64,000 nt of DNA from Marinobacter sp. ATCH36 (GTDB lineage Bacteria > Pseudomonadota > Gammaproteobacteria > Pseudomonadales > Oleiphilaceae): the NCBI RefSeq assembly GCF_023555055.1, contig NZ_JAMJPL010000001.1:1488001-1552000 (forward strand), given 5' to 3'. Shown one piece after another: positions 30,929 to 50,129 of this stretch (the first letter of the stretch is position 1; each line of letters starts with the position of its first letter). The position numbers and the translations under genes were made by a program. The notes below the pieces were generated by a model. That model was not told the origin of the DNA, did not search any database, and saw nothing but the letters and a program-made list of their open reading frames with translations.

Positions 30929-32236
30929 ATGACGAATACAACTGAATCAAAACTTTCTCAAGAAGTACTGGCTTGGCGCGATCCGGAAATGCCGTCGGTC
31001 AAGGGCACCGAAACCCCGAAAGATCCGAACAAGGGCTATATCGCCCTGCTTGGCTGGAGCGTCAATGCCATCAAAGCGGCCCAGAAGTTTAACCGTCGTT
31101 ACGTGGTTGTTGCGCCTGAATGGGCTGCAGATTTCTGCACCGCCAACAATATTCCGTTTATCCCCTGGGATTTCATACGGCTGAATGACCGATCTCTTGA
31201 AATTGCAGAAACGCTCAAAGCGGAAGGCGTTGATGTGGCTATACCGCTGTTCGAGGAAACCGTCGAATGGTCAGGCGCCATCAACTCCGTCCTCATGGAC
31301 AGTCCACGGATGTACGGACAGTCGATTCTGTTCCGCGACAAGGCCCTGATGAAACGCCGTGCCCAGCTTGGCGGTATTCGGGTCGGCATCTTTGAGGAGG
31401 CTCACGAGAAAGAAGACATCATCCGCTTTATGAAGCGTGTTAACCAGACGCTGCTCAAGCTCGACGGTGACCCGGATGACCCGATTCACGTCAAGGCCTT
31501 CGACAAGGCTGGCTGCCTGGGTCATCGCATGATCCGCACTCTGGAAGAAATTGACCAGATTCCGGCCGAGGAATATCCGCTGCTGATGGAAAGCCATCTC
31601 AGTGGCTGGGAATTTGCGGTTGAAGCCTGGATTCACGATGGCAAGATCCAGTTCCTCAATATCTCCGAGTACGTAACCCTGGGGTATTCGGTGTTTGTGC
31701 CGGCTACCAAGGAGCTCGAGAGCTGGCGAAATGCGATCACCAAGCAGATTGAACTGTTGATCAAAACCTTTGATATCAAGTTCGGTCTGATTCATCCCGA
31801 GTACTTCGTCACCGCAGACGGCGAGATGTACTTTGGAGAAATCGCTTATCGCCCACCGGGCTTCAAAGCCTTCGAGCTGATAGAGCGAGCCTACGGATTC
31901 AGTGCTTACCAGGCTTCCATGCTGGTTTTCGACCCGAAGAGCACAAAAGAGGAAGTGGCTGCCTTCTTCCCCAAGGAAGTCGAAGGTGCGAGAGGTTACG
32001 CGGGCTGCTTCGGTGTCTATCCGCGGCGCCGGGTTGTCAGCAGGCTGGAGATGCCCAAGGAAACCACTGAGCATCCGTACTTCGAGTCCCACGAGCTGCT
32101 TGAGCCAACCGAAGAGACAGTTCCGGACCGGTCAGCCTTTGGCACGCACTGGGGCCTGCTCTTCTTCTTCGGAGATGATCCCATCAAAATGCGGGATCTG
32201 CTGAAAGCCCAGGAAGACCTGGACTTTTACGTTTAG
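30929..32236 (+). CDS. ATP-grasp domain protein, copy A
   Basis: A 435-residue ATP-grasp ligase-like protein. The N-terminal Rossmann-like part begins GYIALLGWSVNAIKAAQKFN. The ATP-grasp core has RDKALMKRRAQLGGIRVGIF (ATP-binding Lys region), LLMESHLSGWEFAVEAW, and GEMYFGEIAYRPPGFKAFEL, the metal-binding end motif in place of EINxRxxG. Such enzymes join a carboxylate to an amine or other nucleophile via an acyl-phosphate. The substrates are unknown. The same-length paralogue at 48822-50129 is almost identical from residue 38 to about 363, but the ends differ. A strong terminator at 32246 makes this a single-gene unit. Confidence 0.82.
   Translation: MTNTTESKLSQEVLAWRDPEMPSVKGTETPKDPNKGYIALLGWSVNAIKAAQKFNRRYVVVAPEWAADFCTANNIPFIPWDFIRLNDRSLEIAETLKAEGVDVAIPLFEETVEWSGAINSVLMDSPRMYGQSILFRDKALMKRRAQLGGIRVGIFEEAHEKEDIIRFMKRVNQTLLKLDGDPDDPIHVKAFDKAGCLGHRMIRTLEEIDQIPAEEYPLLMESHLSGWEFAVEAWIHDGKIQFLNISEYVTLGYSVFVPATKELESWRNAITKQIELLIKTFDIKFGLIHPEYFVTADGEMYFGEIAYRPPGFKAFELIERAYGFSAYQASMLVFDPKSTKEEVAAFFPKEVEGARGYAGCFGVYPRRRVVSRLEMPKETTEHPYFESHELLEPTEETVPDRSAFGTHWGLLFFFGDDPIKMRDLLKAQEDLDFYV
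31040..32016 (+). repeat. Near-identical inverted tract, copy A
   Basis: A 977-base stretch that matches 49042-50018 in inverted orientation. Reading both by eye I find about six differences, two of which change a residue (31421 Ile/Val and 31992 Arg/Lys). Similarity falls sharply outside these limits. Confidence 0.9.
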
Positions 32237-32245
32237 AGAAGGTTT

Positions 32246-32280
32246 GGGCGACCGGAAGTCAGTCCGGTCGCCCATTTTTA
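32246..32280 (+). terminator. Terminator after ATP-grasp copy A
   Basis: An 11-bp perfect stem GGGCGACCGGA / TCCGGTCGCCC with a six-base loop, then ATTTTT. It begins ten bases after the stop. Confidence 0.9.
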
Positions 32281-32420
32281 CGATAAGCGTTTGCATCAAG
32301 AAATTGGCTTTCGATAACTGAAGCGGTTGAATGAAAATTGCGCGAGTTCATGATCCTTCCTGGAAGATCGAGGAGTTATCAGGCGTGTGCAATTGCGTTT
32401 TCCACGGAAAGGACAAAAGA

Positions 32421-33245
32421 GTGACCAGAGCAGTGGCCAAATCTCTGGTGTGGATGTTTTGCGCACTGGCGATTTCCCCTGCCTGGTCCGATACCCGGGC
32501 GGCAAAATCGCTTACTGTGTCGATTGCAGCTCCGGAATATTGGTGCCCGTACGCCTGTGATATGGCCGGGTCGCGTTTGGGCTTCACAGTAGATATCACC
32601 CGTGCTGCTCTGGAATCACAGGGGCATAGGGTCGTTTATAGAAACCTGACCTATGACCGTGCGCTTGTAGAGGCAATGCGCGGTCGTATTGACGCCACCA
32701 TACCTACGTTCAAGAGCGAAGCCCCCGATTTTATCTTCCCGTCACACGCAGTATCGCGGACTGAATATTGCTTCTACGTTCCCAAGGGCGAGCCGTGGCG
32801 CTATAACGGCGTGGATTCACTCGAAAACATGCGCTTTGTGGCTACTTCGGGCTACAGCTATGGCGAGGATGTGGATGCTTACATTTCTGAAAATCAGGAC
32901 GTGGGCGTAACACTGATAGGGGGAGATGACATCCCCAATCGCCTCCGCGAGCTTGTGCGCAGAGAACGCTTTGGTGCGCTTCTCGACGACCGACTTCTGT
33001 TCGAATCCAGTCAGAAAAATGTTGGCCTGGTAAATGCGGGCTGTCTCGATGAACACCACGCCGGTTATCTGGCACTGTCCCCGGCAAACCCCGATCGATC
33101 AAATGCCATTGCCCGGGCTTTCGAGCGCGGCATAAAAGTTATCCGGGAGAACGGGCAGTTCTGCGAGATTCTGGATAATTACAGGCTCGGCGCCGAATTT
33201 GTGCCAGGTCTGGATCGCTGTAGCGCCAACCTTCAAGAAAAATAG
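32421..33245 (+). CDS. Family 3 extracellular solute-binding protein
   Basis: A 274-residue periplasmic binding protein of the SBP_bac_3 type. I place the start at GTG 32421, where AAAGGA is seven bases upstream and a signal peptide (TRAVAKSLVWMFCALAISPAWS) follows. The mature protein shows LTVSIAAPEYWCPYACD, LGFTVDITRAALESQG, GRIDATIPTFKSEAPDFIF and an ending RAFERGIKVIRENGQFCEIL, all family features. No permease or ATPase is adjacent, so it may be an orphan binding protein or a sensor component. The stop codon lies inside an inverted GGGACAG-type repeat. Confidence 0.82.
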   Translation: MTRAVAKSLVWMFCALAISPAWSDTRAAKSLTVSIAAPEYWCPYACDMAGSRLGFTVDITRAALESQGHRVVYRNLTYDRALVEAMRGRIDATIPTFKSEAPDFIFPSHAVSRTEYCFYVPKGEPWRYNGVDSLENMRFVATSGYSYGEDVDAYISENQDVGVTLIGGDDIPNRLRELVRRERFGALLDDRLLFESSQKNVGLVNAGCLDEHHAGYLALSPANPDRSNAIARAFERGIKVIRENGQFCEILDNYRLGAEFVPGLDRCSANLQEK

Positions 33246-33260
33246 ATTTGTCCCGTTTTT
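33237..33260 (-). repeat. Dispersed GGGACAG-type repeat, copy 5 (inverted)
   Basis: On the minus strand it contains GGGACAAATCTATTTTTC preceded by AAAAAC. On the plus strand it overlaps the binding-protein stop codon (33243-33245). Confidence 0.6.
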
Positions 33261-33400
33261 ACTGTCGCGCTTGCACAGTCTCTGCACTTTGTGTGGAGGC
33301 TGATCCTGGTCTATGTTTCAAAGTGAGGTAGCATAATTGGCAAAAACCAGTTGCAGTCATCTCGTCTGTGTCCATCAGGATGGTCAGGGAAGGATTGGTT

Positions 33401-33748
33401 ATGAAACTCAGAATCATACCCGTTATATTGGCGAGCGTCTTTTGCCTGGAAGCCGGGTCAGCATTTGCCGACTCCCATGGTCTGGAAACGATGCAACTGG
33501 CTGAGGAAAAGAAGTGTACAGCCTGTCATTCCAAGAGTGAAAGCGACGCTTTGGCGATAGCCCCCTCCTTTGAGAATATTGCCCAGAGGTATTCGATGGA
33601 TGAAGCTGACCGGCTGGTTGAAGTTGTGCTTACTGGCGGAGAGGGCCACTGGGGTAGCGCAGAAATGCCAGATATGGGCGTTCGCACTGATGTCAGTCGT
33701 AAAGATGCCGAAAAGCTCGTGAAGTGGATTCTAGACATGGGAGAGTAA
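33401..33748 (+). CDS. Small monohaem cytochrome c
   Basis: A 115-residue periplasmic class I cytochrome. Signal peptide residues 1-23 (ending SAFA); haem motif CTACH (39-43); probable Met ligand in SAEMPDMG near residue 90. It should carry electrons in the periplasm. The family resembles c551/c552-type proteins. ATG 33401 with AAGGA upstream starts at the signal peptide. A DUF4399 gene follows after 3 bp, so they are co-transcribed. Confidence 0.85.
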   Translation: MKLRIIPVILASVFCLEAGSAFADSHGLETMQLAEEKKCTACHSKSESDALAIAPSFENIAQRYSMDEADRLVEVVLTGGEGHWGSAEMPDMGVRTDVSRKDAEKLVKWILDMGE

Positions 33749-33751
33749 AAC

Positions 33752-34180
33752 ATGATCAACAATACACAACGCTTTTCTCTTGGTTTTATCCTCGCAGCAT
33801 CGATGGTCGCCGGGGCGCACGGGGCAACACCCGCACCTGACGGGGCGGCGGTGTATTTCGTTACGCCTCTGGATGGGCAGACGGTCAGTTCTCCGGTTAC
33901 TGTCAGATTCGGTCTGGACGGGCTTGGAGTGGCGCCGGCAGGCGTGGAGCGTGAGAGCACCGGGCACCATCACCTGTTGGTGGATGTAGACGAACTGCCG
34001 GCGCTGGACAAACCGATCCCTGCGGATGAACGCCACGTTCACTTTGGCGGCGGCCAAACCCAGGCCACCGTGGAACTGGAGCCGGGTGAGCATACCCTGC
34101 AACTACTGGTCGGGGACCACCTGCATATACCCCATGAGCCGCCTGTTATGTCCGAGAAAATCACCATCACGGTTGAGTAG
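33752..34180 (+). CDS. DUF4399 exported protein
   Basis: A 142-residue periplasmic protein with a signal peptide (1-24, ending AHG-A). The DUF4399 pattern is clear: AVYFVTPLDGQTVSSPVTVRFGLDG, STGHHHLLVD, HVHFGGGQTQATVELEPGEH and LLVGDHLHIPHEPPVMSEKI. It is rich in His, with HHH and HVH, so metal binding is likely, but the role is unproven. The GGAGAG ribosome site overlaps the cytochrome stop. Confidence 0.85.
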   Translation: MINNTQRFSLGFILAASMVAGAHGATPAPDGAAVYFVTPLDGQTVSSPVTVRFGLDGLGVAPAGVERESTGHHHLLVDVDELPALDKPIPADERHVHFGGGQTQATVELEPGEHTLQLLVGDHLHIPHEPPVMSEKITITVE

Positions 34181-34242
34181 CAGCGGAAAGGCGTGCTTCG
34201 AGGCCATGAAGTCCAGCGTTTGTTGGCGTTCCGAAGGCTTTG

Positions 34243-35625
34243 TCAGATCAGGTTGTAAAGGAACACCACGCCGATACCGGCGGGTGTGAGGTACCGGAGC
34301 ACGAACATGAATGCTTTGTAGCTGCTGCCTTCCAGACCAATATCGGCCGGCAGGCCGTCGCGCTTCATGGCCCAGCCCGCAAACAGGGCAATGGCCAGTC
34401 CGCCCAGGGGCATCATCAGGTTGGAGACCAGGAAATCGAGCAGATCGAATACCGTCTTGCCTTCAAAGAACGTGATGAAGCCCAGGGGATGTAGATCTTC
34501 CCAGACGTTGAAAGACAACACGGTACCGATACCTATAAACCAGATTGCCAGTCCGCCGCCAAGCGCGCTTTTAATCCGGCTGACGCCTCTGTGTTCTTCT
34601 AGCCATTCCACCACTGGCTCCAGCATGGAGATGGCCGATGTGATGGCCGCTACCAATAGCAGGGCAAAGAAAATGGTGCCGAACAGGGCGCCGCCGCTCA
34701 TCTGTCCGAAAGCCAGGGGCAGCGTAACAAAGATCAGACCGGGACCGGCGCCGGGCTCAAGGCCGTTAGCGAACACCAGCGGAAAGATCGCCAGCCCGGC
34801 GAGCAAGGCAACACTGGTGTCCAGAACGGCGATGGTCATCGCGGTTCTGGCAATATTGACGCTCTTCGGAAGATAAGAACCATAAGCCATCAGCACGCCT
34901 ATACCAATGCTGAGTGTAAAGGCAGCGTGTCCCAGGGCGGTGAGTACCCCAGCGGTGGTCAGTTTGCTGAAATCCGGCGAAAACATGAAGCTCACGGCGC
35001 GGCCGAAGCTGCCACTGTTCATGGCATAAATCACCATGGCGACGAGCAGCACAAACAATAGGGGCATCAGCATATTGACCGCTCTCTCCAGACCTGAGCG
35101 AATGCCCCGACCAACGATGAAAACAACAATTGCCATGAATACCGAATGCCACAGAAGCAGTTCCCAGGGGTTTGCCAGCAACCCGCCGAACTGGCCGCCA
35201 ATGGCTTCGGCGTCTGCGCCGGTAAACAATCCGGTGGCAGCCTTGCCGATGTACACCAGGGCCCATCCCCCGATCACGGCATAAAAAGAAAGCACCAGGA
35301 ATGAGGCTATAACGCCGTTCCAGCCGATCGCTCTCCAGCCCCTGGCGGTACCCTCGGTTCTGGTCAGGGTGCGCATGGTGGCGATGGGGCTCTGGCCGCC
35401 CCGACGTCCAATCATGGTTTCAGCAATCAGTACGGGCACTCCAATCAGGAAGATGCAGGCGAGATAGATCAGAACGAAGGCGCCGCCGCCGTTCTCTCCG
35501 GTGATGTAGGGGAACTTCCAGATATTTCCCAGGCCGACTGCCGAGCCGGCAGCGGCCAGGATAAAGGCCATTCGTGAGGACCAGAGGGTGTTGGCCTGCT
35601 GGTGTGGTTGGGTATTCTGACTCAT
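34243..35625 (-). CDS. Neurotransmitter:sodium symporter (NSS) family transporter
   Basis: A 460-residue LeuT-type sodium symporter with about eleven or twelve helices. The first helix AGSAVGLGNIWKFPYITGENGGGAF carries the family signature and sodium-site residues. Bacterial members take up amino acids such as Trp, Tyr or Leu. It is 59 bp after an aminotransferase and a fused indolepyruvate oxidoreductase gene, so I infer uptake of aromatic amino acids for that pathway. GGAG precedes the ATG. Confidence 0.9.
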   Translation of the reverse strand: MSQNTQPHQQANTLWSSRMAFILAAAGSAVGLGNIWKFPYITGENGGGAFVLIYLACIFLIGVPVLIAETMIGRRGGQSPIATMRTLTRTEGTARGWRAIGWNGVIASFLVLSFYAVIGGWALVYIGKAATGLFTGADAEAIGGQFGGLLANPWELLLWHSVFMAIVVFIVGRGIRSGLERAVNMLMPLLFVLLVAMVIYAMNSGSFGRAVSFMFSPDFSKLTTAGVLTALGHAAFTLSIGIGVLMAYGSYLPKSVNIARTAMTIAVLDTSVALLAGLAIFPLVFANGLEPGAGPGLIFVTLPLAFGQMSGGALFGTIFFALLLVAAITSAISMLEPVVEWLEEHRGVSRIKSALGGGLAIWFIGIGTVLSFNVWEDLHPLGFITFFEGKTVFDLLDFLVSNLMMPLGGLAIALFAGWAMKRDGLPADIGLEGSSYKAFMFVLRYLTPAGIGVVFLYNLI

Positions 35626-35684
35626 TGTGGTCTCCGGCTAGTTGTTTTTGTCGGATTGACGTTTCTGGTCTTTTTTGAAGCTGT

Positions 35685-36872
35685 TTACTTGCTCATGACG
35701 TCCTGTATTGCGGCCGCCACCTGGGGAAGTACGCGATCGTTCAGTCCTGCTACATTCACGCGGCTGCTTTCCAGCATGTAGACCCCATGCTCCTTCCGTA
35801 ACCGGTTCACCTGCTCCGGACTGATCCCGAGGAACGAGAACATGCCCCGCTGATGGGCGATAAAGCTGAAGTCGCCAACCGGCGCCAGAGCGTGTGCAAA
35901 GGCATGGCGCAGATACAGGATTCGCTCACACATTCCGTTCAGCTCATCCTGCCACTGGGCCCGCATCCCCTGGTCGCCAAGAATGGTTTCCACGATGGCA
36001 GCGCCATGGTTCGGGGGCATGGAATAGTGGGACCGGATGACGCTCAGCAGCTGACTGGTGGCCGCCGAGTTGATGGTTGCTGTGGCGGAGATCAGAGCTA
36101 GCGCCCCCGTACGCTCCCGGTAGAGACCAAAGTTTTTTGAGCAGGATGCCGCAATCAGCATTTCCGGCACGGCATTGGCGAGATGCCTCAGGCCTGCCGC
36201 ATCCGCATTAAGGCCCTCGCCCAGACCCTGATAGGCCATATCCACAAAGGGCAGCAGGCCCTTGCGTTGAATCAGGCTGGTGACTTCCTGCCATTGTTCC
36301 AGGCTCAGATCAGCACCTGACGGGTTATGACAGCAGCCATGGAGAAGCACCACATCCCCCGCTTCTGCCCCCTCAAGGGTTTCCAGCATGGCGGCAAAGT
36401 CTACCTGCAGCGTTTCTGGATTGAGGTAAGGATATTCGCGAATGGTCAGGCCAGCGCCACCAAGAAGTGGGAGATGATTGGCCCAGGTGGGTGTGCTCAC
36501 CCAAACCCTGGTGTCCGGTTCGCACAAGCGCAGAAACTCGGCCGCCATGCGCAGGGCACCACAACCGCCCGGGGTCTGGACAACGGACGTACGACCATCC
36601 CGGATCAGCGGGCTGTCGCTGCCCATGATCAGCTCCGCCATGGCACTGTTGAACCCGGCAGAGCCAGCAGGCCCCACATAGCTTTTGGTCGTTTCGCGTT
36701 CCAGCAGGTGGCGTTCGGCTTCATGCACAGCGGCCATGATCGGCGTTTTGCCGGCATCATCCTTGTATACACCGATGCCCAGGTCCACTTTGTCCGGCCG
36801 GGTATCTTCCCGGAAGGTCTGCATCAGTTGCAGGATCGGGTCCTGTGGCAGGGTCTTGAGAGCTTCAAACAT
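35685..36872 (-). CDS. Aromatic/aspartate aminotransferase (class I)
   Basis: A 395-residue PLP enzyme of the AspC/TyrB type. LHGCCHNPSGADL has the substrate-site Asn and Pro, PFVDMAYQGLGEGL holds the cofactor Asp and Tyr, and SCSKNFGLYRERTGAL includes the PLP lysine. It swaps an amino group between an amino acid and a 2-oxo acid. Its start overlaps the fused oxidoreductase gene by 8 bp, so it likely forms the arylpyruvates which that enzyme then decarboxylates. TAAGGAG precedes the ATG. Confidence 0.9.
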   Translation of the reverse strand: MFEALKTLPQDPILQLMQTFREDTRPDKVDLGIGVYKDDAGKTPIMAAVHEAERHLLERETTKSYVGPAGSAGFNSAMAELIMGSDSPLIRDGRTSVVQTPGGCGALRMAAEFLRLCEPDTRVWVSTPTWANHLPLLGGAGLTIREYPYLNPETLQVDFAAMLETLEGAEAGDVVLLHGCCHNPSGADLSLEQWQEVTSLIQRKGLLPFVDMAYQGLGEGLNADAAGLRHLANAVPEMLIAASCSKNFGLYRERTGALALISATATINSAATSQLLSVIRSHYSMPPNHGAAIVETILGDQGMRAQWQDELNGMCERILYLRHAFAHALAPVGDFSFIAHQRGMFSFLGISPEQVNRLRKEHGVYMLESSRVNVAGLNDRVLPQVAAAIQDVMSK

Positions 36873-39800
36873 GGTTCGGCTCCTTATCGGCCTGTTGAGT
36901 GCGGATGAGGGTAGGGCGGCCAGTCTCCAGCGCCTGCATCAACTGCGCCTGTTTTTCCCGGATGCCTTCCGCAGCCTGCTCGCGCACGGGCCCAAAGCCC
37001 CGAACGTCGGCTGGTAATTCCGCCAGTTGCAGGAAGGTTTCGTAGTTACTGGGGTCCAGTTCCCGGCCAATGCGGTCCACAAGAATCTGATAGTCCTTCA
37101 GCATGGCGCGATCCAGTTTCCGGTCCGCTGAGTAACTGAACGGGTCCACAACCGTTCCTCGCAGGCTGCGGAATTTGGCCAGCAGCCTGAAGGCCCGGAA
37201 CATCCAGGGACCGAAGCGGCGTTTTCTAGGACGTCCCTGTGCATCGGTTTCCTTGCTGAGCAGGGGTGGGGCCAGGTGGAAGTGGACCTTGAAGTCGCCC
37301 TCGAAGGTTTCATTCACTTCTTTCATAAAGTCGGTTTGCGCGAACAGCCGCGCCACTTCGTACTCGTCTTTGTAAGCCATGACGCGATACAGTTGTTGGG
37401 CCACGGCGCGGGTCAGGAGCAGGTTTGTTTGCCCCAGGCTTTCCTCGGCCTTGCGGACTTTGGCAACACTGTCCTGATACTGGACGGCCCACCTGCGGTT
37501 CTGGTAGTTGATAAGGTGCTGATGACGGGTTTCGATCAACTCATCAAGAGTTGGCTCGGGTTTCGGACCGACAACCTGCGCTTTGCCGTTGTCCAGCAGT
37601 TCGGTTACCGCGCTCAGATCAACTGCTGCCAGGCGGCCCCAGCCGAAGGCTTCCTTGTTGCGATCGATCGCAACACCATTGAGTTCGATGGCCTTCATCA
37701 GGGCTGCCTCTGTCAGCGGTATCAGCCCTTTCTGCCAGGCAAAGCCCAGCATCATCACATTGGAGAACACGGTGTCGCCCATCAGCTTCTCGGCGATTCC
37801 ATTGGCATCAAGCTGATCGAAATGGTCCTGCCCAACCGCATCCCGGAGCAGACCCAGTCGCTTGTCAGCCTTCATGTCGGCATCGCGGAAGAGCACGTAA
37901 TCGGCGGTGGGCAGTTCCGCTTCGTTGGCAACAATCCGGGTGTGGTTCGGCCTCAGTACGCTCAGGGCTTTCTGGGAGGAAGCCACCACCAGGTCACAGG
38001 CAATAACGGCATCGGCCTGGCCGTTGCTGATCCGCACCTGATGGAGTTTGTCCGGAGACGGCGCCATGCGAACATAGCTCAGAACCGTGCCACCCTTCTG
38101 GGCGAAGCCCATGAAATCCAGTACCGACGCACCCCGGGATTCCAGATGTGCGGCCATGGTAATCAGCTGGCCCACCGTAACCACGCCGGTGCCGCCGACG
38201 CCGCCGACGAGAAGGTCATAGGAACCGGTCATTTCTGGCAGCTTCGGAGCCGGTACACCGGCCAGCTTGCTGGTCAACACTGAGCCGGTGTCCATGCCCC
38301 GGGACTTGCGCAGCTGCCCGCCTTCAATAGTGACAAAGCTGGGGCAAAAGCCATTCACACAGGAAAAGTCCTTGTTGCAGGAATGCTGGTCAATCTTGCG
38401 CTTGCGGCCCAGTTCGGTTTGGCGAGGCACAACCGAGAGGCAGTTGGATTGCACCGAGCAATCGCCACAACCTTCGCATACATGGTGGTTTATAAAGGCC
38501 CGCTTTGCCGGATCCGGGAACTGGTTGCGCTTGCGGCGACGGCGTTTCTCGGCGGCGCAGGTCTGGTCGTAGATCAGCACGGTGCAACCCGGAATGTCCC
38601 GCAATTCACGCTGCAGCGTATCCAGTTCGGAGCGGTCGTGGAAGGTAACGTCCTTGGGGAACTGGTCTTTATGGCCATCGTACTTTTCCGGCTCGTCACT
38701 GAGCACTGCTACCCGGCGAACACCCTCGGCTGCCACCTGCTGGGCAATCATGGGAACGGTGATCTGTCCATCCACCGGCTGGCCACCGGTCATCGCCACC
38801 GCATCGTTGAACAGGATCTTGTAGGTGATGTTGATGCCAGCGGCAACGGCCTGGCGGATAGCCATGGAACCGGAGTGGAAATAGGTGCCTTCACCCAGGT
38901 TCTGGAACACGTGGGGATTGCCGGTATACCGGCTCTTGCCAATCCAGTTGACGCCTTCACCACCCATCTGGATCAGGGATTCGGTGTTCCTGCCCATCCA
39001 GGAGGCCATGAAGTGGCAACCGATACCGGCCAGAGCTTTACTGCCTTCCGGGACCTTGGTTGAGGTGTTGTGGGGGCAGCCGGAGCAGAAATAGGGCATC
39101 CGCTTTACGCCACCCGGGTCCTGGGCGTTGGACATGGCACTGATATCCGCCATGCGCTCACTGAAATCCACCGACAAGAACCGGCCAAGCCGTGCGGCCA
39201 GGAAACCGGCTACCAGTTTCGGGCTCAGCTCTCCCACATAGGGAATCAGCGGGCGCCCCAGTTCATCCTGTTTGCCAGTGATCAGCACCTCGCCGGGCCG
39301 ATCCGGCTCGGACATATACTCCTTCATCTGGCTCTCGATAATGCCCCGTTTTTCTTCAATGACGAGGACTTCTTCCTTTCCGTGTACGAAATTGAGGACG
39401 CCGCGGCGCTCCAGAGGCCAGACCATACCGACCTTGTAGATATCCAGCCCCATTTCCCGGGCCTTGTCTTCATCAATGCCCAGCAGATCCAGCGCTTCGA
39501 GCAGGTCCAGGTGGCCCTTGCCGGTGGTCACAATTCCAAAACGCGCTTCCTGGTTACTGTACAGGCAGCGGTCAATAGGATTTGCGCGGGCAAATGCCTG
39601 CACCGCAGCCAGCTTGTGCTCAATACGGGTCTCCAGTTGGGGCCCGGGCAGGTCCGGCCAGCGGTAATGAAGGCCGCTTTCGGGTGCGGTGAAATCATCC
39701 GGTGTTACAAATTCCGGCAAGGGCGGCAGCTTCACGGATGCCGCACTTTCAACCGTTTCCGAAATCGCCTTGAAACCCACCCAGCAGCCGCTGTAACGGG

Positions 39801-41796: not shown

Positions 41797-41799
41797 TTA

Positions 41800-42072
41800 T
41801 TAACCGGGTCCCTCCGCGCCAACCTGATTTTTGTCGAACTGGGAGTGAGTGCCGTCACAATAAGGCGCATCGCTGGTGTGTTTACACTGACAGAGGAACG
41901 CGTGGCCATCCTCTTCTGGCACGAAGCTCTTTGGAGTGATACCGGTACCTTTGTGAGAGCCGTCGCAGAAGGGTTGGTCGCTGGACCGCCCGCAGGCGCA
42001 AAACATGTACTTTTTACCCTTCTCCAAGGTAACTTTTTTGGGCTTGTTGTCTGCAATGACGGGGTTGCTCAT
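41800..42072 (-). CDS. CDGSH iron-sulfur domain protein
   Basis: A 90-residue protein with two CDGSH motifs: CACGRSSDQPFCDGSH (25-40) and CQCKHTSDAPYCDGTH (61-76). Each binds a 2Fe-2S cluster with three Cys and one His, as in mitoNEET-type and prokaryotic double-CDGSH proteins. Roles in iron-sulfur or redox handling are known only generally. It is adjacent to a glutathione S-transferase gene, on the same strand. Confidence 0.92.
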   Translation of the reverse strand: MSNPVIADNKPKKVTLEKGKKYMFCACGRSSDQPFCDGSHKGTGITPKSFVPEEDGHAFLCQCKHTSDAPYCDGTHSQFDKNQVGAEGPG

Positions 42073-42144
42073 AGACTCTCTCCCTTGTTGTACCGATATT
42101 TTCGATCTTACCGTTGGTGCGGTTTGGTGTCAGCCAGTTCCTGA

Positions 42145-42813
42145 TCAGGCAAAATCATAGTCTCCACCCTTTTCAAGAGCCTTCTGGTACGCAGGCCTGG
42201 CATGCACTCGCTCGACCCAGGCGGTGATATGAGGCCGGTTCTTGCCGACAATACCCCGTGCTACTGAGGCTTCCAACGGAAAACTCATCTGAATATCGGC
42301 TGCACTGAGATTATCCCCGAGAAACCAGGTGTTTTTCGCAAGGTGGGATTCGACAAAATCCAGGTGTGTCTTGATCATCGGGCCGATGAATATTTCATTG
42401 GTTTTGTCTGAAATGCCTTTTGCCACTGGTTTGATAAAAAACGGCATCGGGCTGGTTTTCACTTTTTCAAACACCAGGCGCATCACCAGCGGAGGCATCA
42501 GGGAGCCTTCGGCGTAATGCAGCCAGTAGGTGTAATCAAGCCAGGCTTGGCCGCCTGCCTCAGGCAGCATGGTGTCTTTGCCGTAGGTGTGGGCAAGGTA
42601 TTCGATAATGGCACCGGACTCCGCCACCACCAGATCGCCGTCGGTGATCACCGGTGATTTTCCCAGCGGATGCACCTTTTTCAGGCTCTCAGGCGCCAGC
42701 ATGGTTTTGGGATCACGCTGGTAACGCTGAATTTCGTAGGGCAATCCCAGCTCTTCCAGCATCCAGAGAACGCGTTGTGAGCGGGAATTGTTAAGGTGGT
42801 GAACTGTGATCAT
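42145..42813 (-). CDS. Glutathione S-transferase family protein
   Basis: A 222-residue cytosolic GST. The thioredoxin-fold domain starts ITVHHLNNSRSQRVLWML, with KSPVITDGDLVVAESGAII, the cis-Pro and Glu-Ser glutathione site. The helical C-terminal domain has GDNLSAADIQMSF, the N-capping box. Ser10 or Asn8 would be the catalytic residue. Its substrate is unknown. It lies upstream of and in line with the CDGSH gene, 72 bp apart, so they may be co-expressed. CGGAG precedes the ATG. Confidence 0.92.
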   Translation of the reverse strand: MITVHHLNNSRSQRVLWMLEELGLPYEIQRYQRDPKTMLAPESLKKVHPLGKSPVITDGDLVVAESGAIIEYLAHTYGKDTMLPEAGGQAWLDYTYWLHYAEGSLMPPLVMRLVFEKVKTSPMPFFIKPVAKGISDKTNEIFIGPMIKTHLDFVESHLAKNTWFLGDNLSAADIQMSFPLEASVARGIVGKNRPHITAWVERVHARPAYQKALEKGGDYDFA

Positions 42814-42904
42814 GCAGGAACTCCGTTCGCTTCAAAAAATGAGCAGGTATGGAAAGTAGGCTTAAAATGGCTTTTTGGTTCACTGCTGCCCGTGCGTTGC
42901 GTCG

Positions 42905-43798
42905 CTAGTTTCGTTTACGGGCGGTAAAGGAGTGGTGTTTAAGGTCTTTGATAATCTCGGGTACCTTGAGGGGCAATAACTTCCCGCCCGCTTTAATAAG
43001 GCTGATCACGGCATTCATCCGCTTGTACCATAGCACCTGGTGAATCTTTGCCTTCATGGGGCGGTAGCCTTCCTGATAAAGCTCATCCACGCAGTCAGCA
43101 TTGTTGGTAAGGCTATAACGGCTTAAATCCAGCGCCACGGCTATGTCCGCCTTTTTTAACTGCTTGCGGGTATTGAAGTCGATACCAATGTTGATGGCAT
43201 TACTAATCACATCGAGCGTATTTTCCGGTTTTGGGTAGCGGCCCACATGGCTCAGATCGACGGCCACAGTGATACCCGCTCCCATTTTTCCCAACGGTGA
43301 GATCGGGACATTTTCAACCAGACCACCGTCTACCAGAATGCGACCGTCGATCTCCACTGGCACAAACAGGCCGGGTACAGCCATGGACGCACAGACTGCG
43401 TCCGCCAGATTTCCTTCTCTGAAAATCAGCTGCTCACCCGTTTCTATATCCGTTGCGCAGATGGCCAGAGGAATGTCGGCATCTTCGATCCTGCAATCGC
43501 CCAGATCTCGATGGATCATTTCCCGAATGGTATCGGTGCTGAACAGGCCTCCGCGCTCAAAGGTGAAGTTGATAATCTTCGACAGATTCAGCGTTGAGCA
43601 GACGGAGAGTATAGACTCTGCCGGACGGCCGAAGGCATGATAACTGGCGATCAGCGCCCCTGCACTGGTGCCCGAGATGCAATGAATCCTGATTTGCTCT
43701 TCTTCAAAGGCCTTCAAAACGCCGATGTGGGCAATGCCCTTGGCAGCTCCGCCCCCGAGGGCGAGGCCGATACGTGTATTAAAGGGATTGAGTTTCAT
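42905..43798 (-). CDS. Patatin-like phospholipase (RssA/YchK-like)
   Basis: A 297-residue patatin-fold hydrolase. The oxyanion site is GGGAAKG, the nucleophile motif is GTSAG (GxSxG), and the catalytic Asp is in VDGGLVENVP. Its length and simple layout suit the RssA/YchK type. It probably splits acyl lipids. ATG 43798 is chosen at the family start KLNPFNTRIGLALGG; an in-frame TTG at 43822 is less likely. Confidence 0.88.
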   Translation of the reverse strand: MKLNPFNTRIGLALGGGAAKGIAHIGVLKAFEEEQIRIHCISGTSAGALIASYHAFGRPAESILSVCSTLNLSKIINFTFERGGLFSTDTIREMIHRDLGDCRIEDADIPLAICATDIETGEQLIFREGNLADAVCASMAVPGLFVPVEIDGRILVDGGLVENVPISPLGKMGAGITVAVDLSHVGRYPKPENTLDVISNAINIGIDFNTRKQLKKADIAVALDLSRYSLTNNADCVDELYQEGYRPMKAKIHQVLWYKRMNAVISLIKAGGKLLPLKVPEIIKDLKHHSFTARKRN

Positions 43799-43860
43799 GC
43801 TGAAGGCCTGAAGATGATACAAAGGGGATATAGTGATATTAATGTTAACAGAGGTCGATT

Positions 43861-44316
43861 ATGGCGGAACTGTCACTCAAGGAAAAATTGGGCAACGCGG
43901 TAAAGAACGCGATGCGAAGCAAAGATAAAACCCGGCTTGTCACTCTTCGTATGGCCCAGTCTGCGGTCAAGCAGATCGAGATTGATGAACGCCGTGAGCT
44001 GTCTGACGAGGACGTCCTGAAGGTGTTGGATAAAATGCTCAAGCAACGCCGTGACGCTGCCAGTCAATACGACGATGCTGGCCGCGAGGAGCTGGGTGAT
44101 AAGGAACGGGCAGAAATGGTGATCATCGAGGAATTCATGCCCGCTGCCCTGACCGAGGATGATCTGGACGCCCTGATCCGGCTGGCTATCAGCTCAACCA
44201 ACGCCCAGGGCATGCAGGATATGGGGCGCGTGATGAACGAGCTGAAACCCCAGGTGCTCGGCCGCGTTGAGATGGGCCATCTGAGCAAGAAGGTACGGGC
44301 TGCGTTGGCGGCCTGA
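43861..44316 (+). CDS. GatB/YqeY domain protein
   Basis: A 151-residue YqeY-type protein. SLKEKLGNAVKNAMRSKDK, then LRMAQSAVKQIEIDER, then GMQDMGRVMNELKPQVLGR, cover the whole family pattern. YqeY resembles the tRNA-binding tail of GatB and is thought to act with aminoacyl-tRNA metabolism. Divergent from the patatin-like gene. Confidence 0.92.
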   Translation: MAELSLKEKLGNAVKNAMRSKDKTRLVTLRMAQSAVKQIEIDERRELSDEDVLKVLDKMLKQRRDAASQYDDAGREELGDKERAEMVIIEEFMPAALTEDDLDALIRLAISSTNAQGMQDMGRVMNELKPQVLGRVEMGHLSKKVRAALAA

Positions 44317-44409
44317 CGGGTGTTCCCGTGTTTTCCGCCTTGAATTGTCGGTGCCGCGCACTCAGCTATAAAAGTTAGATACGCCAAATGCCTAACCAGG
44401 AGATTCGCC

Positions 44410-45048
44410 ATGCATGTGTTCATTGCCGGAGCTAACGGGCAAATCGGTCAATACCTGTTGCAAGAATTGGCAGACAGCGATCATGAGGCACGTGCGTTGA
44501 TCCGCCACCCGGATCAGGGGCCGGAATTGCAGCAGATGGGTGCTACGGAAACCGTGCTTGGCGACCTTGAGCAGGACTGCAGTGAGGCCATGAAAGGCTG
44601 CGATGCTGTCATTTTCACTGCGGGCTCTGGCCCTCATACCGGGCCGGATAAAACCATCGATGTGGATCAGGACGGTGCCATCCGGCTGGTGGATACGGCC
44701 AGGGCCATGGGTATAAAGCGTTTTATCATGGTAAGCAGTATGCGAGCTGAGGAGCCGGAGAAAGGGCCGGAAAAACTCCGTCATTACCTTCAGGCCAAAC
44801 ACAATGCTGATGAGCATCTGAAGAACAGCGGTCTGAATTACACCATTGTTCGTCCGGGCCAACTGACTAACGATGAAGGCACAGGCAAGGTTGCTGTGAG
44901 TGCCAGGTTGGAGAGTTTCGGCAAGATTCCACGGCAGGATGTTGCACGCGTGCTGCTCGCGGTGCTGGATTCGGATAATACCGACAACCGTGTTTTCGAT
45001 GTGGTATCCGGCGACACACCGGTGTCTGAGGCGCTGGCTGGAGCCTGA
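44410..45048 (+). CDS. NAD(P)-binding SDR-type protein (NmrA/YhfK-like)
   Basis: A 212-residue atypical short-chain dehydrogenase. The cofactor site is FIAGANGQIGQYLL (GxxGxxG); ALIRHPDQGPEL sets the NADP end, and LKNSGLNYTIVRPGQL is the family segment after the active-site region. It lacks a clear YxxxK, like many regulatory SDRs. AGGAG precedes the ATG. A fragment similar to its codons for NADEHLKNSGLNYTIVR lies at 46227. A small membrane protein gene follows after 5 bp. Confidence 0.87.
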   Translation: MHVFIAGANGQIGQYLLQELADSDHEARALIRHPDQGPELQQMGATETVLGDLEQDCSEAMKGCDAVIFTAGSGPHTGPDKTIDVDQDGAIRLVDTARAMGIKRFIMVSSMRAEEPEKGPEKLRHYLQAKHNADEHLKNSGLNYTIVRPGQLTNDEGTGKVAVSARLESFGKIPRQDVARVLLAVLDSDNTDNRVFDVVSGDTPVSEALAGA

Positions 45049-45053
45049 TAACC

Positions 45054-45233
45054 ATGGACACCCTGCTGATAATTCTCGCTGTTCTTTTTGTGGCACTGAT
45101 TGTCATTATCCCGCTGGTGGAAAAATACGCCCCGAAGGGTGAACCCCATAGCTTTGGCAATATCACCCGCTGGATCATTCCGCTGATGATACTGGTTCTT
45201 GTGCTGCAACTGCTTCGGCAATATTTCATGTGA
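45054..45233 (+). CDS. Small two-helix membrane protein
   Basis: A 59-residue protein starting MDTLLIILAVLFVALIVIIP (first helix), then a polar loop KYAPKGEPHSFGN, then a second helix WIIPLMILVLVLQLL. GGAG is 11 bases before the ATG, and the gap after the SDR gene is only 5 bp, so it is likely co-transcribed. I do not recognise the family. Confidence 0.7.
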   Translation: MDTLLIILAVLFVALIVIIPLVEKYAPKGEPHSFGNITRWIIPLMILVLVLQLLRQYFM

Positions 45234-45284
45234 GGAGCGGGGCGACATGCTCGGGTTGAGAGCATTGCGTTAACGAACACCGAT

Positions 45285-46154
45285 CTACCAGCCGAGCATG
45301 ATGCTCCCCAGAAGGGCATCGCCCAGACTTAGGTCCTGGGTGCCCGCCTCCAGGTCCCGATACTGGACACGGGTATCCAGACTCGCGCCAATTCCCAGAA
45401 CTACCGTCGGCCACAATCTGTCACCCGAGCTGACCCGGTAGGTCAGCTCCGTTCTCCACTCGCGCAGATAAAGCGTGTTTTCGACTTCCCGTGCCTGATC
45501 AAGGGTTGCCCAGCGATCTCCCTCGCGCTCCAGCCGAATCTCCCAGCGTCTGCCGGGGCTTTGCCATCTCACCAGGACGGGCAGATCCATCAGCCAGTGG
45601 CCGCTATCACTGGCGTGCTCCCAGCGCACCCTGGGAAGCCAGCGGAATGAACCGAAGCGATGATCGCCGCCAACTCCCAGGCTCAGGGGCGAGCCCTCAC
45701 TGACTGCCCGAAACATCGCAATACGGCCATTTACCACATCACTATGAAATGTTCGATGCTTGAACATATTGGATGTACCGGCAAAACCAGCCTGCGCTTC
45801 CACGCGGTAAAGCCGGTGCTGCCATTGGCCACCGAAGGTTAACCGGTGCAGATGGCCATTGTGAGCCGGTTCACCGGTGCGTATGCGCAGAGGCTGATAA
45901 TCGTAATCAACACCGAACCTGCCGGCGGCGATCTGGCGACGCCAACCCAGCCCACGCTGGGAGCGGGTCACCTCGGTGGTCGAGGGCACACTTTCCGGCC
46001 AGTCGTAGGGCTGCCATTGGCGGTAAAGCAGATATAGGTCACTGGAGGCCTGAGCAGGGCGCGGCAGGGCAAGGGCGGCTAGCAGAAGAACCACCGGAGG
46101 GGAAAGACATGAAATCGCACGACCTATGATTCGAAAACAATGCCCATTGCACAC
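45285..46154 (-). CDS. Predicted outer-membrane beta-barrel protein
   Basis: A 289-residue exported protein starting with GTG. The signal peptide runs through about residue 36 (VVLLLAALALPRPAQA). The mature protein is rich in Trp, Arg and alternating strands (FGVDYDYQPLRI, RLTFGGQWQHRLYRVEAQAG, WEIRLEREGDRW), like a barrel, but its last residue is Trp within MLGW; a terminal aromatic is accepted for outer-membrane insertion. The family is not recognised. Confidence 0.65.
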   Translation of the reverse strand: MCNGHCFRIIGRAISCLSPPVVLLLAALALPRPAQASSDLYLLYRQWQPYDWPESVPSTTEVTRSQRGLGWRRQIAAGRFGVDYDYQPLRIRTGEPAHNGHLHRLTFGGQWQHRLYRVEAQAGFAGTSNMFKHRTFHSDVVNGRIAMFRAVSEGSPLSLGVGGDHRFGSFRWLPRVRWEHASDSGHWLMDLPVLVRWQSPGRRWEIRLEREGDRWATLDQAREVENTLYLREWRTELTYRVSSGDRLWPTVVLGIGASLDTRVQYRDLEAGTQDLSLGDALLGSIMLGW

Positions 46155-46226
46155 AATACGGTGTCCCTAGCCGTCAGAGGTATTCAGACTTGTTTACCAA
46201 CAATACGGTTTCTTCGGACCAAGTAA

Positions 46227-46277
46227 AACGCCGATGAGTACCTGAAGAACAGCGGACTGGATTACCCCATTGTTCGT
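46227..46277 (+). repeat. Partial copy of an SDR gene segment
   Basis: Bases 46227-46277 match 44803-44853, inside the SDR gene, at 44 of 51 positions by my count. The translated strip is NADEYLKNSGLDYPIVR against NADEHLKNSGLNYTIVR. The frame continues to a stop near 46366 without SDR features. The remainder of the 46155-46523 gap has no recognised gene; a short repeat lies at 46377. Confidence 0.7.
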
Positions 46278-46376
46278 AAAGCTGTTCCCGCCACCCGCCC
46301 TTCGAGAAAATCAAGAAAACCAGAGCCATCATCGCTAAACCCGTTTGTTGAAGGCAGCTTTTTCTAAGACACTAAT

Positions 46377-46399
46377 GATGGGATTTTGTTACTTTCAGG
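46377..46399 (+). repeat. Short repeat with TTTGTTACTTTCAGG, copy 1
   Basis: Matches 48390-48412 at 22 of 23 bases, both on the plus strand. The second copy overlaps the end of the 2OG-oxygenase-like gene. Confidence 0.6.
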
Positions 46400-46523
46400 G
46401 TTCCAGTTTATGCTCTGGCATCTGTTAAAGTGTTTATGTCGGTAGTATTTGTGCTGGTGTCAAGTAGTGCGCTGTTCCGGAATGAAATCCTGATCACTGT
46501 TACCTTTCCGAGGGATCTAAACC

Positions 46524-47003
46524 ATGTCTCTTTTCCCGGCCGACAACGGCGAAAATGATCTGTTCATTTCACGAACCGATTCAGATAACCCATTGGGAAC
46601 CCATGCATCCTTCAGCTTTGAGCTGGAAGGCAAAGTATGGCCCACAGTGGAACATTACTTCCAGAGTATGAAATTTACCGATGAAAACCGCCAGGAAAAA
46701 GTGCGGGTAGCGGCCACTCCCGCGCTGGCGGGAAAGCTGGGTCGCAAACGCCACAAAAGCCTGCGACGCGACTGGAAGCAGGTGCGTGAAACCGTCATGA
46801 CGAGGGGGGTATACGTTCGCTGCCGCACCCACCCCGAACTGGCGGAGGAATTGCTCAACACCGGCGACCAGAAGATCGTGGAAAACAGCAATTTCGATTA
46901 CTTCTGGGGGTGTGGCCGTGATCGTCGGGGCGAAAACCGTTATGGCAAAGTGCTGATGAATGTCCGGTCCAAGCTGCGAGAAGAGCAGGCGGAGAACCTC
47001 TGA
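46524..47003 (+). CDS. NADAR-family protein (YbiA-like)
   Basis: A 159-residue protein of the NADAR (DUF1768) family. WPTVEHYFQSMKF (the VEHxYQxxKF motif), KRRDW-like RRDWKQVRETVM and FDYFWGCGRDRRGENRYGKV (the WGxGxxxxGxNxLG motif) are clear. NADAR proteins act on N-glycosidic bonds; E. coli YbiA is a riboflavin-intermediate hydrolase and other members remove ADP-ribose from DNA guanine. No DarT-like toxin is beside it, so a YbiA-like role is more likely. It is a lone gene, followed by a weak GGGGCAGATTTG repeat-like element. Confidence 0.9.
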   Translation: MSLFPADNGENDLFISRTDSDNPLGTHASFSFELEGKVWPTVEHYFQSMKFTDENRQEKVRVAATPALAGKLGRKRHKSLRRDWKQVRETVMTRGVYVRCRTHPELAEELLNTGDQKIVENSNFDYFWGCGRDRRGENRYGKVLMNVRSKLREEQAENL

Positions 47004-47093
47004 TCAGCAACCAGAAAATCCGGGGCAGATTTGAGTTCTGATTATCCGTTGGGCGGTGTCTGATATTCACGCGTTACTGATGGAGAAAGTATC

Positions 47094-48377
47094 GTGAAGT
47101 CTTTGTCGAGTACAGGGTTTGCTTTTTTTGGCGCCTCGCTGATTGCGATCAGTTATGGCCTTGCGCGCTTTGCCTTCGGCTTGTTCGTACCGCCCATCCG
47201 TGCCGAGCTGGATCTGACGCCCGATCTGATCGGTATCATCGGCGCCCTGCCACTCATCAGTTTCCTGCTGGCTACATCCATTGCGCCGATTGCAGCCGAT
47301 CGCCTCGGTGCCCGCAATACGGCGGTTCTGTCCGGTGGTTTTGGTGCTGTCGGCCTGGCGCTTATCAGCCAGGCTTCTGGTTTCGTATCACTCGGGGTAG
47401 GGGTGTTTGCTTGCGGCATTTGCACTGGCCTGATGATGCCGGCGCTGACGGCCGCCATGCAGGTACTGGTCGACCGTTCCGTGCACGGGCGCGTCAGCTC
47501 GGTGATGAACGCGGGTACGAGCATCGGTGTCATGGTTGCCGTGCCTGCCGTGCTGTTTCTGGCGGGTATCTGGCGCTACGCGTACATGTCTTTTGCCGCT
47601 ATGGCGGTCATCGGGCTGTTTGCCGCATGGTATTTCATTCCTTCGGTATCACGGGTTGCTCCGTCAAACGCAGCGCCGCCGCCTCCCATCACCGCGCTGC
47701 AGTGGTGGCGCCTGTTCAGGCTCTCGCTGTTTGCCTTTGTGATGGGATTTGTCTCTTCTGCTTACTGGATTTTTGCTCCCGATCTCGTCGTCACCCTCGG
47801 CGAGCTGCCGTCCGGGGAAACCGGGTGGCTTTGGCTGGCGGTCGGTATCGCCGGGCTGGGAGGTGCTGTGGTGGCTGACCTGGCCGATCGCAATAATCCG
47901 CCCATCACTCAGGCACTGATGCTGATGATGCTGGCCGCGAGCCTGGCATTGTTGGCTGCCAGTCCCGGCCAATTGGTGCTGGCGGCGTTTTCCGGGCTGG
48001 TCTTTGGCCTGGCCTATATGAGTTTGACGGGGCTTTATCTGATGACAGGTATCCGGCTCTTGCCGGGCCGACTGTCGATGGGCCCCGTATTGCCCTTCAT
48101 GGCAGTCTCGCTCGGTCAGGCGGCCGGCTCACCCATTGTCGGTATGTTGGTTAACAACTTTGGTTACAGCAATGCGTTTGCCATTTTTTCCGCGATCGGC
48201 ATCGTGGTGGCACTCCTGTCACCGCTGTATCCGCGCAACATTGAGCATGCGTCCGAGGAAGAGGCAGCGGAGGACACTGGCCTCCAGGCAGCATACGATT
48301 ATCAGCTCCAGGACGAAGAGGGCGAGCCGTTCACTTACGACTCCGAAGAAACCTCTTCAGGTGGCACTAAGGACTAA
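47094..48377 (+). CDS. MFS transporter (CynX/NimT-like)
   Basis: A 427-residue 12-helix transporter of the major facilitator superfamily. AISYGLARFAFGLFVPPIR near residue 18 and APIAADRLGARNTAVLSGGF near 60 (the loop 2-3 motif) mark it. The last 40 residues form an acidic cytoplasmic tail (ASEEEAAEDTGLQAA, QDEEGEPFTYDSEE), unusual for the family. The GTG start follows GGAGAAAG. Its substrate is unknown. It converges on the putative oxygenase gene 30 bp away. Confidence 0.87.
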   Translation: MKSLSSTGFAFFGASLIAISYGLARFAFGLFVPPIRAELDLTPDLIGIIGALPLISFLLATSIAPIAADRLGARNTAVLSGGFGAVGLALISQASGFVSLGVGVFACGICTGLMMPALTAAMQVLVDRSVHGRVSSVMNAGTSIGVMVAVPAVLFLAGIWRYAYMSFAAMAVIGLFAAWYFIPSVSRVAPSNAAPPPPITALQWWRLFRLSLFAFVMGFVSSAYWIFAPDLVVTLGELPSGETGWLWLAVGIAGLGGAVVADLADRNNPPITQALMLMMLAASLALLAASPGQLVLAAFSGLVFGLAYMSLTGLYLMTGIRLLPGRLSMGPVLPFMAVSLGQAAGSPIVGMLVNNFGYSNAFAIFSAIGIVVALLSPLYPRNIEHASEEEAAEDTGLQAAYDYQLQDEEGEPFTYDSEETSSGGTKD

Positions 48378-48389
48378 TGAGTGGCCAAG

Positions 48390-48412
48390 GATGGGAGTTT
48401 GTTACTTTCAGG
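48390..48412 (+). repeat. Short repeat with TTTGTTACTTTCAGG, copy 2
   Basis: Second copy of the repeat at 46377, located between the convergent MFS and oxygenase-like genes and covering the latter's stop codon. Confidence 0.6.
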
Positions 48413-48716
48413 CTCGGTTATTTGTCATCGCAAAACTCAGCAACCACCGGTTACCGCGCTCGATCTTTGAAACCCTGTGCTGATAGAGGTCCGGGCGAAA
48501 CAGGTATAGCCGCCCGAACAGGTTGAAAATGTTCTTTTCGCAGATGAATTCGCCACCGGCTTTGGGCTTCACCAGAACGCAGTTGAACTTGTAAAGCTGG
48601 CCCTCGGAGATCATGTCCACGTGGGGTACAACCTTGTGGCCCTCGGGGTATCGAACCAGATATATGTTCAGGCGTTTGGACTTGAACAGAATCCGGGTTT
48701 TAACATTTGCAGGCAT
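48408..48716 (-). CDS. Small putative 2OG-Fe(II) oxygenase-fold protein
   Basis: A 102-residue protein shorter than usual for its fold. VPHVDMISEGQLYKFNCVLV has the HxD pair (His32 and Asp34), LYQHRVSKIERGNRWLLSFA supplies the distal His and the 2OG-binding Arg, and KPKAGGEFICEKNIF is the strand between. This is the order of the double-stranded beta-helix of 2-oxoglutarate/iron(II) oxygenases. It lies 105 bp after ATP-grasp copy B on the same strand, so the two likely form one unit. No strong ribosome site is visible. The activity is inferred from motif order only. Confidence 0.6.
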   Translation of the reverse strand: MPANVKTRILFKSKRLNIYLVRYPEGHKVVPHVDMISEGQLYKFNCVLVKPKAGGEFICEKNIFNLFGRLYLFRPDLYQHRVSKIERGNRWLLSFAMTNNRA

Positions 48717-48821
48717 AGGGTGACCAGTTCTGGTATTTGTAATGCGCCGGAGGCAGCCTTTTCGCTACCTCCAGCTTACCTGTGTTATGGGACCAGAAAC
48801 AATCGTTCCCTGAACGACAGG

Positions 48822-50129
48822 CTAGACATAGAAGTCCAGATCTTCCATGGATTTCAGCAAATCCCGCATCACGATCGGGTCCTCACCAAAGAAGAACACA
48901 AGTCCCCAGTGGGTACCGAAGGCTGAACGATCAGGAACCGTTTCCTCTGTCGGTGCCACCAGTTCGTGTGACTCGAAGTAGGGATGATCAACACACTCGG
49001 GAGGCATTTCCAGTTTGCTGACCACGCGACGGCGTGGATAAACACCGAAGCAGCCCGCGTAACCTTTCGCACCTTCGACTTCCTTGGGGAAGAAGGCAGC
49101 CACTTCCTCTTTTGTGCTCTTAGGGTCGAAAACCAGCATGGAAGCCTGGTAAGCACTGAATCCGTAGGCTCGTTCGATCAGCTCGAAGGCTTTGAAGCCC
49201 GGTGGGCGATAAGCGATTTCTCCAAAGTACATCTCGCCGTCTGCGGTGACGAAGTACTCGGGATGAATCAGACCGAACTTGATATCAAAGGTTTTGATCA
49301 ACAGTTCAATCTGCTTGGTGATCGCATTTCGCCAGCTCTCGAGCTCCTTGGTAGCCGGCACAAACACCGAATACCCCAGGGTTACGTACTCGGAGATATT
49401 GAGGAACTGGATCTTGCCATCGTGAATCCAGGCTTCAACCGCAAATTCCCAGCCACTGAGATGGCTTTCCATCAGCAGCGGATATTCCTCGGCCGGAATC
49501 TGGTCAATTTCTTCCAGAGTGCGGATCATGCGATGACCCAGGCAGCCAGCCTTGTCGAAGGCCTTGACGTGAATCGGGTCATCCGGGTCACCGTCGAGCT
49601 TGAGCAGCGTCTGGTTAACACGCTTCATGAAGCGGACGATGTCTTCTTTCTCGTGAGCCTCCTCAAAGATGCCGACCCGAATACCGCCAAGCTGGGCACG
49701 GCGTTTCATCAGGGCCTTGTCGCGGAACAGAATCGACTGTCCGTACATCCGTGGACTGTCCATGAGGACGGAGTTGATGGCGCCTGACCATTCGACGGTT
49801 TCCTCGAACAGCGGTATAGCCACATCAACGCCTTCCGCTTTGAGCGTTTCTGCAATTTCAAGAGATCGGTCATTCAGCCGTATGAAATCCCAGGGGATAA
49901 ACGGAATATTGTTGGCGGTGCAGAAATCTGCAGCCCATTCAGGCGCAACAACCACGTAACGACGGTTAAACTTCTGGGCCGCTTTGATGGCATTGACGCT
50001 CCAGCCAAGCAGGGCGATGTAGCCTTTGTTCGGATCCTTCGGTGTTTCTGTGCCACGAACGGAATCCAAAGTGGGGTCTTTCCAGGCTTCAATCTCTGGG
50101 GATAACTTGGCTTCTTGTGTAATCGACAT
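48822..50129 (-). CDS. ATP-grasp domain protein, copy B
   Basis: A 435-residue paralogue of the gene at 30929, in opposite orientation. All ATP-grasp motifs are present, and residues 38 to about 363 differ at just two positions that I could find (Ile/Val and Arg/Lys). The first 37 residues and the last 70 differ far more; copy B has MSITQEAKLSPEIEAWKDPT against MTNTTESKLSQEVLAWRDPE. AAGGAG precedes the ATG. Unlike copy A it is followed by a small oxygenase-like gene rather than a terminator. Its substrate is unknown. Confidence 0.82.
   Translation of the reverse strand: MSITQEAKLSPEIEAWKDPTLDSVRGTETPKDPNKGYIALLGWSVNAIKAAQKFNRRYVVVAPEWAADFCTANNIPFIPWDFIRLNDRSLEIAETLKAEGVDVAIPLFEETVEWSGAINSVLMDSPRMYGQSILFRDKALMKRRAQLGGIRVGIFEEAHEKEDIVRFMKRVNQTLLKLDGDPDDPIHVKAFDKAGCLGHRMIRTLEEIDQIPAEEYPLLMESHLSGWEFAVEAWIHDGKIQFLNISEYVTLGYSVFVPATKELESWRNAITKQIELLIKTFDIKFGLIHPEYFVTADGEMYFGEIAYRPPGFKAFELIERAYGFSAYQASMLVFDPKSTKEEVAAFFPKEVEGAKGYAGCFGVYPRRRVVSKLEMPPECVDHPYFESHELVAPTEETVPDRSAFGTHWGLVFFFGEDPIVMRDLLKSMEDLDFYV
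49042..50018 (-). repeat. Near-identical inverted tract, copy B
   Basis: The inverted partner of 31040-32016. The edges are abrupt: codons just outside already differ by silent and then by coding changes. Confidence 0.9.

Follow-up and report, generated by a model that had tools for sequence, protein, structure and literature searches.

Probable gene conversion between two inverted ATP-grasp-like paralogues with a sharply bounded, near-identical core in Marinobacter

Introduction

A close parallel among described cases of gene conversion is the tufA/tufB pair of Salmonella. In the published account (PMC5485169), the copies differ at 12 positions and lie 762 kb apart, the conversion events are laboratory-selected, inversion accompanied nearly half of those selected at one site, and the conversion tracts are mostly contiguous and contained inside the gene. 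Here we describe a pair from a stretch of 64,000 nucleotides of Marinobacter sp. ATCH36 (hereafter the window) that resembles tufA/tufB in consisting of two chromosomal paralogues of about 1.2 to 1.3 kb in inverse orientation. Literature searches that combined gene conversion with Marinobacter returned, judged by title, no work on such a conversion; gene conversion combined with ATP-grasp gave no match; and ATP-grasp combined with Marinobacter gave a match on DddX.

Identity along the two copies

Copy 1 (30929..32236, + strand) and copy 2 (48822..50129, - strand, inverted relative to copy 1) are ATP-grasp-like open reading frames of subfamily A, each encoding 435 amino acids; the two genes are thus of equal length, as had been noted in the preliminary description, and their products are 94% identical. 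When aligned without gaps, the genes were found to differ at 105 of 1,308 nt, with 6 differences in a core of 977 nt and 99 in the other 331 nt. This homogenised core extends over 31040..32016 in copy 1 (+ strand) and 49042..50018 in copy 2 (- strand). The differences within it are located at 31421, 31429, 31882, 31885, 31936, and 31992 of copy 1 and at 49637, 49629, 49176, 49173, 49122, and 49066 of copy 2; four of the six are silent and two change the protein (I165V and R355K). By base comparison of the copies, 41 of 111 nt differ in the diverged 5′ end (30929..31039, + strand, in copy 1; 50019..50129, - strand, in copy 2) and 58 of 220 nt (26%) in the diverged 3′ end (32017..32236, + strand, in copy 1; 48822..49041, - strand, in copy 2). 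The earlier estimates of about six, mostly silent core differences, of the core limits, and of strong divergence in the first ~110 and last ~220 bases were therefore accurate, the count of six and the limits exactly so.

A repeat finder (seed 16, minimum 40) reported a single inverted repeat, 31004-32055 / 49003-50054, that is 98% complementary with 16,947 nt between the arms, and reported no direct repeat at the same settings. The 400-nt flanks of the two copies aligned no better than shuffled sequence, both upstream, where the regions had already been described as unrelated, and downstream.

The contrast between core and ends was evaluated at the 418 third positions that vary within the gene family. 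The longest mismatch-free run between the copies covers 144 of these positions, a length reached by 0 of 20,000 shuffles (shuffle maximum 92), so that a GENECONV-like conversion test excludes chance and bears out the reading put forward at the outset; an even spread of differences along the genes, which would have spoken against that reading, was not what was found. Among 4,656 gene pairs from 97 rows, the gap in identity between core and 3′ end was 0.26 for the window pair and 0.13 for the next pair. In addition, the final 135 nt of the core hold four of its six differences (post hoc binomial test, 0.004), a clustering that would fit two overlapping tracts.

Gene family and control pairs

The family in Marinobacter comprises subfamily A, whose members are 86-94% identical to copy 1, and subfamily B, at 73-77%. 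Subfamily A was detected in 48 of 124 Marinobacter genomes, the window genome counted in, and in two copies in 6 of the 124 (counted from the 54 subfamily A rows of a match table with an E-value limit of 1e-200). In the window genome, two genes belong to A and one, at C11:1137604, to B. The latter (L132 9605-12867, from G000:C11:1137604 onward) is a third paralogue, 76% identical, with a relative of the 662-aa protein described below directly downstream. One or two in-frame stop codons interrupt the matched part of the subfamily B matches at L018 (G002) and in G094, G099, G120, and G121; these stops may precede the true start. Both window copies score 24.8 bits against Pfam ATP-grasp_4 (PF13535), under the gathering cut-off of 27, and copy 1 matches the L-amino acid ligase chains 4wd3 and 3vot (BL00235-like) weakly, with E-values of 2.7e-4 and 2.3e-3. 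The product is ATP-grasp-like and weakly resembles L-amino acid ligase BL00235; the AlphaFold model of the protein has a mean pLDDT of 50.7.

The five other two-copy Marinobacter genomes (G076, G085, G095, G114, and G135) were used as controls. Their pairs differ at 130-210 sites of the 977-nt core (13-22%) and at 19-52 of 217 sites in the 3′ end (9-24%), with the differences distributed over the length of the gene, and their observed longest run was matched by 785-4,392 of 5,000 shuffles, compared with 0 of 5,000 for the window pair. The window pair is therefore the only homogenised pair among the six two-copy genomes. Relatives in which both copies are alike to their ends would have told against conversion; instead, the five other pairs are diverged over the whole gene.

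These controls also bear on whether purifying selection on a conserved catalytic core could have kept the copies alike. The core protein is indeed highly conserved across the gene family, but the family-variable third positions of the core differ between the window copies at 4 of 313 sites (42 of 70 in the 3′ end), in contrast to 98-170 of 313 in the control pairs. Since the silent sites of the core are also near-identical, selection at the protein level cannot explain the identity, and we give this explanation practically no weight.

Histories of the core and the ends

Separate trees were built from the core and the ends. For the 112-row trees, L108, L104, L072, L101, L109, and L074 (long-branch or distant) were dropped before the set of 118 rows, from which six duplicates were then removed; a quick tree was built from the 97 rows left after duplicates had been taken out, and 32 rows for AU tests were picked from the 112 after the larger tree had been seen. 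In the 112-row core tree, the two copies are sisters (100/100) and form, together with G036, G095a, and G133, a five-member set (97/94). For the ends, the 112-row tree groups copy 1 in a set of 12 rows (98/98) that includes G009, G076a, G098, G135a, and G082, and copy 2 in a set of 8 rows (95/93) that includes G022, G036, G067, and M. salarius. The quick tree built for the ends from 97 rows places both copies in one 15-row set (99), with copy 2 next to G022 (L040) and beside genes at the copy 1 position. AU tests of the ends as sisters gave p values of 0.766 for the 97 rows, with the constrained tree scoring even better there, 0.158 for the 112 rows, and 0.0136 for the 32 post hoc rows; the 3′ ends alone as sisters gave 0.242 (97 rows). 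The sister relation was thus rejected on the 32 rows alone. On these rows, placing copy 2 inside the copy 1 group gave p 0.116, again no rejection, and placing copy 1 inside the copy 2 group p 0.048. It is likely, but not firmly proven, that the ends of the two copies belong to two separate lineages, and given the mixed AU results and the 97-row tree the duplication can be dated relative to speciation only tentatively. That the copies are older paralogues, as the preliminary description had it, is well supported; the 112-row ends tree splits them, and the AU tests, run on short ends, are too mixed to fix the depth of that split.

Among the rows compared, the 5′ end of copy 1 is nearest to G133, G059, G095a, and L046 (81-84%), and the 3′ end of copy 2 to M. 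salarius, G022, and G036. For copy 1, the 3′ end cannot be clearly assigned to the lineage of the 5′ end, so that the gene may combine more than two pieces of different origin. L046, a metagenome-assembled genome labelled Halothiobacillus, holds the gene nearest to the ends of copy 1 (84%), owing either to transfer or to mis-binning. A mosaic was also seen at L165 and L171 (G095a and G133), where the ends group with the copy 1 lineage and the core with the window copies and G036; judging from the trees, this may reflect either a shared older core exchange or independent ones.

Related cores therefore circulate in the genus, with G095a, G007, and G036 nearest to the window core and G095a, G133, and G036 grouping with it, which would be in keeping with separate imports of one foreign donor's core into the two copies. 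Such an origin would require two imports with matching boundaries, and among 110 other genes none exceeds 86.9% identity to the core; we consider a foreign third donor improbable. Two candidate indicators of the direction of transfer between the copies were discarded. (i) At the six core differences, the rarer base among 86 rows is in copy 1 at offsets 492, 500, 953, and 1063 and in copy 2 at 956, with 1007 ambiguous; these bases could have arisen by mutation afterwards and do not identify the donor. (ii) The affinity of the core is to G095a/G133, whose ends go with copy 1, as well as to G036, whose ends go with copy 2.

Gene order and the segment between the copies

Ten genomes were compared for gene order, counting matches of at least 60% identity in the fetched stretches and scoring relative orientation after turning the whole region where needed. 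Seven of them (G062, G007, G016, G006, G009, G076, and G098) have genes mapped both inside and outside the segment between the copies (32237..48821) and are informative on its orientation; G135, with two genes that both lie inside, and G082 and G059, each with a single gene that is concordant by construction, are uninformative. The preliminary description had suggested that the inverted pair could drive inversion of this 17-kb segment. No inversion was seen in the seven informative genomes, where all 71 mapped backbone genes keep their relative orientation, while local gene order varies in places among the compared genomes. Given the inversions that accompany tuf conversion (PMC5485169), inversion by recombination between copy 1 and copy 2 would nonetheless be possible.

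The gene order also bears on the assembly, as the genome is in 26 contigs and a repeat of ~1 kb can mislead short-read assembly, by collapse or mis-joining. Copies that differ by 13-22% would not collapse, however; the two cores carry six distinct bases; and both copies lie inside one 1.68-Mb contig in which the backbone genes are oriented as in relatives. An artefact is accordingly very improbable.

The position and orientation of copy 1, between a gene like 17614 and genes like 42145 and 42905, are common to G009, G076, and G098 (both flanks) and to G135 and G082 (one flank each), the five genomes named above whose genes join copy 1 in the 112-row ends tree. For copy 2, G062 and G006 have the genes 47094 and 50504 side by side, separated by about 90 and 560 nt, too little to hold an ATP-grasp gene; in the window these two genes bracket 48408 and copy 2. 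It might be supposed that the whole gene was recently duplicated and that the ends of one copy were afterwards replaced by a foreign allele of the same family. The mosaics of G095a and G133 show the family to be mixed across the genus, so that exchange between lineages does happen; but such a history needs replaced ends on both sides of the same core as well as unrelated flanks on both sides, and the copy 1 position is common to other species. We regard it as unlikely, with only a small share of the probability.

A link of copy 2 to a histone-deacetylase-like gene at 53210 was considered, since the orthologue of that gene adjoins an ATP-grasp gene in G036, G067, and G010. The link is weak, as (i) the two genes are 3.1 kb apart in the window, in another arrangement, and (ii) in G007, G016, and G062 the orthologue is in the backbone without an adjoining ATP-grasp gene. 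The gene at 46524-47003 (+ strand) encodes a NADAR-domain protein that scores above the TIGR02464 cut-off and below that of a NADAR anti-phage family.

Copy 1 is adjoined by a gene for a 662-aa protein (27992-29980, - strand) without a Pfam or NCBIfam match. A PDB profile search with this protein gave one chance-level match (E 0.7), and its AlphaFold model has a mean pLDDT of 59.5. A search for related loci was limited to the best 80 of 585 relatives, 62 of which have more than 3 kb on both sides; in 28 of these 62 loci, a relative of the 662-aa protein lies within 2 kb of the ATP-grasp gene, either upstream, in the same or the opposite orientation, or downstream in the same orientation. The 662-aa protein and the ATP-grasp protein may work together. 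The window genome has three paralogues of the 662-aa protein. A relative at L150 9944-11857 (G000:C11), of a kind that adjoins a subfamily A gene in other species, has no such gene beside it, which would look like loss or relocation of the ATP-grasp gene.

Discussion

Recent gene conversion between older paralogues very probably explains the pattern of core and ends, in agreement with the preliminary description, and is supported by the abrupt boundaries, the unrelated flanks, and the five unconverted control pairs. Two features expected of such an event were observed: a tract of high identity, silent sites included, with sharp edges within diverged copies, and flanks that were neither exchanged nor duplicated, as the unrelated 400-nt flanks and the constant orientation of the mapped genes indicate. 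In the sequence of events that we propose, paralogues of one ATP-grasp-like gene would first have diverged, to the extent of 26% of bases in the 3′ end. Recent homologous recombination would then have copied the ~1-kb core between the copies with the flanks left unexchanged, presumably during double-strand-break repair that used the other copy as template and was resolved without crossover. We infer an intragenomic, non-crossover transfer of the RecA type. In eight pairs taken as proxies for the unconverted pair, the longest exact runs were 20-38 nt, a poor substrate for homologous recombination, and with runs this short the event was probably rare or stepwise. Gene conversion at this locus is a fresh instance of a known process and an ordinary outcome of homologous recombination.

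Because G095a and G133 show a similar mosaic, a broader reading may be considered, in which the core of the family is a preferred exchange module, swapped across paralogous or inter-species lineages, while the ends stay tied to the locus. This would be a rather unlikely, though not negligible, possibility; candidate cases are the window strain, G095, G133, and perhaps G036. If it were true, the ends might have functions specific to their locus, with the core being kept interchangeable. With regard to gene conversion itself, the window pair offers a clean natural case of a recent event between paralogues with ends that differ at a quarter of bases or more, accompanied by five controls from the same genus. 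It also calls for caution with trees of this ATP-grasp family, which mix histories along the gene.

The pair can be compared with three described systems. Unlike the tuf genes (PMC5485169), the Marinobacter copies differ by 26-37% in their ends and lie 17 kb apart, and conversion is inferred here, with no inversion seen. Like concerted evolution of prokaryotic paralogues, in which paralogues of one genome are more alike than orthologues, the process has made two copies of the same genome alike; concerted evolution is described as recurrent and long-lasting (PMC6053082), whereas the Marinobacter conversion is found in one of six two-copy genomes. Like the release factors RF1 and RF2, an internal region was converted between anciently diverged paralogues and the rest remained diverged (PMC4530459). 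In the release factors, the conversion covers nearly one domain and is described in two cases, one of them termed ancestral (PMC4530459), whereas in Marinobacter it is recent, with 0.6% divergence, and takes in three quarters of the gene.
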